DNA of 64,000 bases from an uncultured Caryophanales bacterium. GTDB lineage: Bacteria > Bacillota_I > Bacilli_A > RFN20 > CAG-449. Under the pieces are notes generated by a model. The model was not told where the DNA came from. It worked only from the letters and a program-made list of their open reading frames with translations, and did not search any database. A program made the translations under genes and the position numbers. Positions 26,959-27,794 of the stretch are shown in pieces (positions within the stretch are counted from its first letter, which is position 1; each line of letters starts with the position of its first letter). The stretch covers positions 1 to 64,000 of the forward strand of contig CAMCEE010000010.1 of assembly GCA_945873815.1 (NCBI GenBank), given 5' to 3'.

Positions 26959-27264
26959 ATGAAAACACAACAAATTAACATACACCAAATCGGAAGATCA
27001 ATTAAGGTGTTGAGAGTAAGAAGCAATCTTACTCAAGAGGATCTTGCCGACCGCATTGGATACAGCGTAAGAAACTTACGCCGTATTGAAAATAACGGGA
27101 CAAAAAGCATTGAGACAATCAATTGCTTTGCTGAATTCTTCAACGTTTCCGCATTCGACATCCTTAATGGATGTCTTTTATTTACAAAATCCCCAAGGAA
27201 TGAATATTACCAGCCTTCGCCATACATTATAATCCAATCTATTATTCGTACATGTGCACCCTAG
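26959..27264 (+). CDS. Small XRE-family helix-turn-helix regulator
   Basis: The N-terminal 65 residues are a clear XRE/Cro helix-turn-helix: IGRSIKVLRVRSNLTQEDLA, DRIGYSVRNLRRIENNG, then the third-helix region CFAEFFNVSAFDIL. The start follows AAAGGAAAGGGG at ten bases; an ORF start at 26881 has no site. The last 28 or so residues, after NGCLLFT, are coded within the 3' arm of the structured RNA region and look unlike a folded domain, so the natural gene may have been shortened or extended there. A hairpin GACATCC-TTAAT-GGATGTC followed by TTTTATTT lies inside the frame (about 27157-27183) and could terminate some transcripts. Confidence 0.75.
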   Translation: MKTQQINIHQIGRSIKVLRVRSNLTQEDLADRIGYSVRNLRRIENNGTKSIETINCFAEFFNVSAFDILNGCLLFTKSPRNEYYQPSPYIIIQSIIRTCAP

Positions 27265-27728
27265 GCTGAGCAAGAAGGAGCGACCTTAATGCGACTAGGA
27301 GGAGTATTTCTACTGACCCACAGGAAGAATCGATATCTTCCAAATTTCACGGAGATCCAGCCTAACTTATAAAATACATGTGTCTAATTAACTGACATAC
27401 CGCTACTTTTGCCCGTAAAATTTGTTATAGGTAATTACTTACCATCAAGTCAAACACTTCTTTTGAGAACGAAGATGATGAGTTCTCAATTCATCATCTT
27501 TACGTGGGATGTATTACTACAGAGCCTCTTGTCGTGCCAAATCGTACGGCTACTTATATATAGAGAAAGATAATGTGCCACTACCCACAGCGAGTGTTTA
27601 TTCTCGTTGACTATTTCTAGTCTTGTTTGAAATGCAGCATCCCACATTTCATCCTCTCGTGGTTAGTGCCTCAGCCATTTTCAAGATGGAGTTACTGAGG
27701 TCTAATATTCATTCCTTGGAGATTTCCA
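27187..27728 (-). ncRNA. Candidate large structured non-coding RNA, unidentified
   Basis: The ends, 27187-27209 and 27703-27725, pair over 23 bp with one exception, which is a U-G pair only on the minus strand. Inside, minus-strand hairpins GACTA-GAAA-TAGTC, AGTA-GAAA-TACT and GGTAA-GTAA-TTACC all have GNRA tetraloops; on the plus strand they would be TTTC and TTAC. A 3' domain is closed by ACATGT (27376/27250) and TAGGCTG/CAGCCTA (27358-27364/27262-27268). Another hairpin has CCTCAG/CTGAGG (27669-27700). A TATAAT box at 27740-27735 sits about ten bases before the 5' end, but I see no good -35 box and no clear terminator at the 3' end. No long frame is open. Large ornate RNAs such as ROOL, GOLLD or OLE are candidates; a MITE with terminal repeats is the alternative. 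Confidence 0.65.
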
Positions 27729-27753
27729 GGAACAATTATATTGTATTGCATAT

Positions 27754-27794
27754 AAAAAAGAAGCGTGAGGACAAGAAATGTCCTCTTACTTCTT
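27754..27794 (-). terminator. Terminator of the GGDEF gene
   Basis: On the minus strand AAGAAG, then GAGGACA around the loop, pair with TGTCCTC and CTTCTT across a small internal loop, followed by six T. It lies just after the stop at 27802 and separates the GGDEF gene from the structured RNA. Confidence 0.8.

Follow-up and report, generated by a model that had tools for sequence, protein, structure and literature searches.

A chromosomal ROOL RNA gene flanked by a candidate operator and a convergent helix-turn-helix gene, probably its own switch

What is the large structured RNA that lies between the gene of a GGDEF protein and a cation/proton antiporter gene in an uncultured Caryophanales bacterium, and what may decide when it is made? 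In the window, by which we mean the whole stretch of 64,000 nucleotides that has been analysed, a first-pass annotation had described positions 27187-27728 as a large functional RNA, either ROOL-like or possibly of a new class. The cages that ROOL RNAs form exceed a ribosome in size; to our knowledge, neither a function nor a protein partner has been assigned to these RNAs, and we know of no earlier testable handle on their expression. The scan with all Rfam models that had been proposed at that stage has returned RF03087 on the minus strand with 188.8 bits (E 7.1e-41), far above the gathering score of 99.1 bits and over the full length of the model, and has given no match to GOLLD or OLE. The minus-strand RNA is a genuine full-length member of the ROOL family, as had been suspected, and since Rfam assigns it to RF03087, the idea of a new class has fallen away. 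Its main parts are the following.

27192..27723, minus strand: ROOL RNA (RF03087), model positions 1-574 of 574, with P1 reaching 27187/27725 (cmscan and covariation)
27703..27725, minus strand: 5' strand of the P1 end helix, 23 bp (complementarity and covariation)
27187..27209, minus strand: 3' strand of the P1 end helix, 23 bp (complementarity and covariation)

The 23-bp helix that had been described as joining the two ends (27187-27209 with 27703-27725) is exact and corresponds to the P1 of the family. Watson-Crick pairs form at 22 of its 23 positions, the remaining one pairs, as U-G, only when read on the minus strand, and the helix is the longest inverted repeat within 700 nt in the window (the runner-up has 17 bp). 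GNRA tetraloops on the minus strand had been counted as three; they are present, but four have been found (GAAA at 27617-27614, GUAA at 27517-27514, GUAA at 27438-27435 and GAAA at 27310-27307). Similarly, the closing stem suggested at 27358-27364/27262-27268 does form seven Watson-Crick pairs at exactly these positions, but its conservation is limited to a GCUG/CAGC core, it is broken in the relative G006, and it is absent from the Rfam consensus. The earlier doubt about the strand has been settled in favour of minus. Covariation, likewise recommended at the outset as a check, has been evaluated in 16 aligned ROOLs of the same bacterial order with pairs derived from the window's Rfam alignment, and has given strong support. 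The share of paired cells is 93.6% (78.5% after shuffling), a figure that is favoured by retaining only pairs with at least 60% of cells paired; changes on both sides occur in 70 of 108 pairs, including 8 of the 11 pairs of P1, and the covariation score reaches 0.541, compared with 0.242 after shuffling and ~0.1 for slid structures. Compensatory changes among the relatives keep the secondary structure, and both this covariation and the family membership are read from the sequences themselves. A reading of the element as a MITE is excluded because the source genome holds one copy and the structure covaries strongly.

Regarding assembly, other ROOL members have been observed by cryo-EM to self-assemble into hollow multimeric nanocages (PMC12286853). 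Among the relatives, the five pairs between L8 and J8/6 are formed in 97.4% of cells, and three of the five show double changes, UGAGA/UCUCA being replaced by UGAUA/UAUCA in G006 and by UAGGA/UCCUA in G168b. A conserved hairpin loop, UCGCU in the window, keeps its GC without exception. On our reading of the structural work, this pairing is equated with the published intermolecular (quaternary) bridge B4 (PMC12286853), and, so equated, the L8-J8/6 kissing pairs are a further family trait found here. Short of proving a cage, the covarying pairs support conserved assembly contacts. The RNA would fold as a ROOL and self-assemble via these loop contacts into a multimeric cage, and, by analogy with its cryo-EM-solved relatives, it probably does so.

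The unusual part of the locus is found in its flanks, which the first-pass annotation had missed, and consists of a palindrome in front of ROOL and a convergent HTH gene behind it.

27769..27783, minus strand: palindrome GGACA-TTTCT-TGTCC, the candidate operator, followed by a conserved TCAC (alignments, scoring and order-wide search)
27740..27745, minus strand: -10 box TACAAT at a conserved 23-nt spacing from the palindrome, with no recognisable -35
26959..27264, plus strand: small solitary HTH gene of XRE/Cro-CI type, 101 codons (Pfam HTH_3, E 9.5e-10), common to non-syntenic ROOL loci

Is this arrangement peculiar to the window, in which the HTH gene overlaps the ROOL 3' end? In six ROOLs, three from the genus and three from a sister genus, a small convergent HTH gene is present past the 3' end, in genomic surroundings that mostly differ, and upstream of each of the six the sequence GGACA-N5-TGTCC or a one-base variant is present, usually followed by TCAC. 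A survey of 196 genomes of the order with a 149-position sub-model of the ROOL 3' domain, which divergent ROOLs may escape, has yielded 25 loci in 23 genomes, all confirmed by Rfam except the second G092 copy (L130), detected by the sub-model alone. The palindrome precedes 17 of the 25 ROOLs, which we term type A; those without it are termed type B. A convergent HTH gene, which may overlap the ROOL 3' end or lie up to 865 nt past it, is present in all 14 type A loci with downstream sequence (the other three end at contig ends), and all eight type B loci lack both palindrome and HTH gene, an association with a Fisher value of 3e-6 when kinship of the loci is ignored. The exact pattern GGACANNNNNTGTCCTCAC occurs at 12 sites in 11 of the 196 genomes, every one of them directly preceding a ROOL, and the reversed control pattern has zero matches in the same set. 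Outside the order, operator matches have been encountered in two genomes only (G211 and G218), which have no ROOL there, and are put down to chance or terminators. IMG/VR stretches holding the pattern number 83; in the 80 that have been searched (L163-L242) none has a ROOL, and the matches in phages are therefore considered chance.

Genus g2 has one genomic site common to three genomes; outside it, the HTH gene is the recurrent gene common to the loci, and a few locus pairs share others. The ROOL of G108 nests with those of g2 (clade support 0.991, with low support of 0.15 for its pairing with G009), yet it has neither palindrome nor HTH gene, which were either lost or never there. Co-divergence of ROOL and HTH has been considered and rejected, as the correlation obtained with the full set of 14 loci (r 0.66, P 0.0007) is carried by g2 only (r 0.06, P 0.38 without this genus). 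In five genomes, type B loci (L122, L123, L124, L126 and L128) contain a divergent gene for a protein of ~300-340 aa, 113-171 bp upstream, and a WCX domain of the kind found in WYL regulators is present in the G062 copy of this protein; the second ROOL lineage may have its own regulator. No paper joining ROOL and helix-turn-helix has been found in a literature search, and since this search was thin on subscription journals, the novelty of the pairing is provisional.

We consider it likely that the chromosomal ROOL gene has its own switch, in which the HTH protein binds the palindrome and controls, probably by activation, the production of a cage-forming RNA. The TATAAT noted earlier at 27740-27735 is indeed present, but it overlaps TACAAT at 27745-27740, and the latter has been taken as the -10 box because relatives conserve its spacing to the palindrome. 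With the -10 box chosen automatically, 12 of 16 loci have 23-24 nt between it and the palindrome end, a class that the window joins if TACAAT is the -10 box, and this distance centres the palindrome near -43. Scored for the palindrome, all 16 type A loci that were tested reach 9-10 of 10, as against 7 or less for ROOLs of type B and of phages. In the window a T-run follows the palindrome, hairpin and run together are scored as a terminator on either strand, and the GGDEF gene is oriented towards this hairpin, features that would also be expected if the palindrome were merely the terminator of that gene and the HTH gene an accidental neighbour. Such an explanation is nevertheless highly improbable: most type A loci have a divergent gene upstream, which needs no terminator there, the T-run is absent from most other copies, conservation extends to the spacing from the -10 box and to the asymmetric TCAC, within the order a ROOL invariably follows the pattern, and the HTH gene is common to unrelated genomic sites. 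One genome (G183, L098/L101) has two operator copies 219 bp apart before a single ROOL.

The linkage and the spacing are properties of the DNA as it stands; binding, the sign of regulation and the biological role are what we infer. In the proposed switch, a minus-strand transcript of ~535-545 nt would be made from the ROOL gene, and the HTH protein would bind GGACA-N5-TGTCC centred near -43 and control its transcription as a one-target regulator, acting as an activator in class II position. Class II activators sit in this way at their promoters, e.g., lambda CI at PRM. Because a -10 box is present, a -35 is not recognisable and the palindrome lies near -43, an activator is favoured over a repressor, the spacing being the sole guide to the sign. 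The main rival to activation is a phage-repressor-style repressor of ROOL, since the closest solved relatives of the HTH profile include PezA, HipB, SinR and the 434 repressor, many of which are known as repressors; against this, a site at ~-43, upstream of the -10 box and with no recognisable -35, gives the usual class II activator picture, and repression therefore seems the less probable sign, although one to be taken seriously. Autoregulation is not supported, as the palindrome has been found upstream of the HTH gene in 1 of the 12 loci scanned. Upstream of the HTH start (L004, L005, L084, L099 and L100), a leader with CTCATA...ACC that could pair with the Shine-Dalgarno and start region recurs, together with AGCGAAT; by visual inspection it suggests an anti-Shine-Dalgarno leader of the HTH mRNA, a reading that was rejected as not significant at most loci in an ungapped test.

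Does the cassette belong to the chromosome, or has it been carried in? ROOL is located ~29 kb from dnaA in the chromosomal backbone (dnaA, dnaN, recF and gyrB, as named from their translations, occupy 56-63 kb of the window), and the adjacent antiporter gene is missing from other genomes of the genus in an empty-site comparison. ROOLs are frequently phage-borne and near tRNA islands (PMC12286853), the IMG/VR ROOL copies recovered here adjoin tRNAs, and one of them (L014) is placed, weakly supported (0.37), among the type A ROOLs, which is what a prophage remnant with ROOL as leftover cargo might leave. This origin has been rejected as very unlikely, as neither phage nor tRNA context has been found at the locus. 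The window contains no tRNA genes and nearly all loci have none within the 1.5 to 10 kb scanned on each side; no phage structural or integration family is among the 25 most frequent PHROG matches of 113 proteins around 14 loci, and none of the 80 viral contigs with the operator pattern holds a ROOL. A plain blastn search with the RNA as query has given no match in phages or plasmids. ROOLs in non-prophage regions are already on record (PMC12191101), so that the location alone is not new. Two further observations concern RNA genes: a tmRNA gene at 1476-1851 of the window is detected by Rfam and missed by ARAGORN, and in the large tRNA array of L017 and L021 a raiA-motif RNA follows ~0.7 kb after a phage-type ROOL.

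A mobile or defence-island element with ROOL and HTH as its core would account for the occurrence of the pair at different sites in related genomes, for the MntA-HepT type toxin-antitoxin pair between ROOL and the HTH gene in G006 (L005:9041-9864), and for the AbiE, Fic and TIR proteins and restriction-modification genes that occur nearby. We regard it as unlikely, given that no integrase or repeats have been identified and that the PADLOC enrichment is modest, with 127 families compared with 64 in control regions (~twofold), which held defence genes too. In G146, G117 and G168 (contig 19), ROOL is followed, either directly or in the interval to the HTH gene, by a small ORF that carries KSKxxYTxxWLxRNK close to its start (L084:2033-2386, L097:2045-2317 and the right end of L139); Pfam gives no match for the two copies scanned.

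The proposed HTH switch may itself be under an additional control, as a terminator lies within its gene.

27157..27183, plus strand: intrinsic terminator GACATCC-TTAAT-GGATGTC-TTTTATTT, located in the HTH reading frame and 77 nt short of its stop codon

Since it precedes the stop codon, this terminator is predicted to yield a nonstop mRNA for a 75-aa protein, a truncated product that retains the whole HTH domain. A terminator before the HTH stop codon has been found in 10 of 14 loci including the window, which are related loci and not 10 independent events, and in G006 it precedes the stop by only 7 nt; among control ORFs examined with a similar detector, the count is 6 of 244 (~2%), one of the six being the HTH gene of the window. 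In the window, G002, G046, G123, G168a and G174, the terminator ends at most 7 nt from the ROOL 3' end. An intrinsic terminator before the stop codon is the hallmark of BrfA/ArfA-type genes: brfA of Bacillus subtilis is a small gene in which such a terminator in the coding region gives a nonstop mRNA, through which trans-translation keeps BrfA low, and a nonstop mRNA is likewise made from arfA of E. coli (PMC6881298). By analogy, the HTH regulator is predicted to be under tmRNA control. Taken a step further, an activator made from nonstop mRNA and normally cleared through tmRNA tagging would accumulate when phage attack or translation stress overwhelms trans-translation, and would switch on the ROOL cage, so that the cassette would couple a nanocage to ribosome-rescue capacity; we hold this extension to be quite doubtful.

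A dedicated regulator with a defined operator would offer a genetic handle on when the cage is made and on the effect of its absence, and nonstop control, if true, would point to translation stress as the signal. The RNA itself adds a new member to a family already known; provisionally, the dedicated regulator and operator look new. ROOL structures have been published for env-120, E. faecalis and L. salivarius (PMC12286853, PMC12191101), and the RNA described here resembles them in its P1 end helix, pseudoknotted core, L8-J8/6 kissing pairs, full-length family match, GNRA loops and variable linker; unlike them, it is chromosomal, has no tRNA island, and is accompanied by a dedicated palindrome in front and a convergent HTH gene. 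GOLLD and OLE are likewise large, ornate, homo-oligomeric bacterial RNAs (PMC12286853), but they differ from it in sequence and structure. The HTH protein shares its DNA-binding domain with solitary XRE regulators such as PezA, SinR and CylR2; in contrast to these, it has no conserved toxin partner, its partner being a non-coding RNA gene. With brfA, finally, the HTH gene has in common the terminator within the coding region, whereas brfA and arfA encode ribosome-rescue factors and the gene at this locus encodes an HTH regulator.
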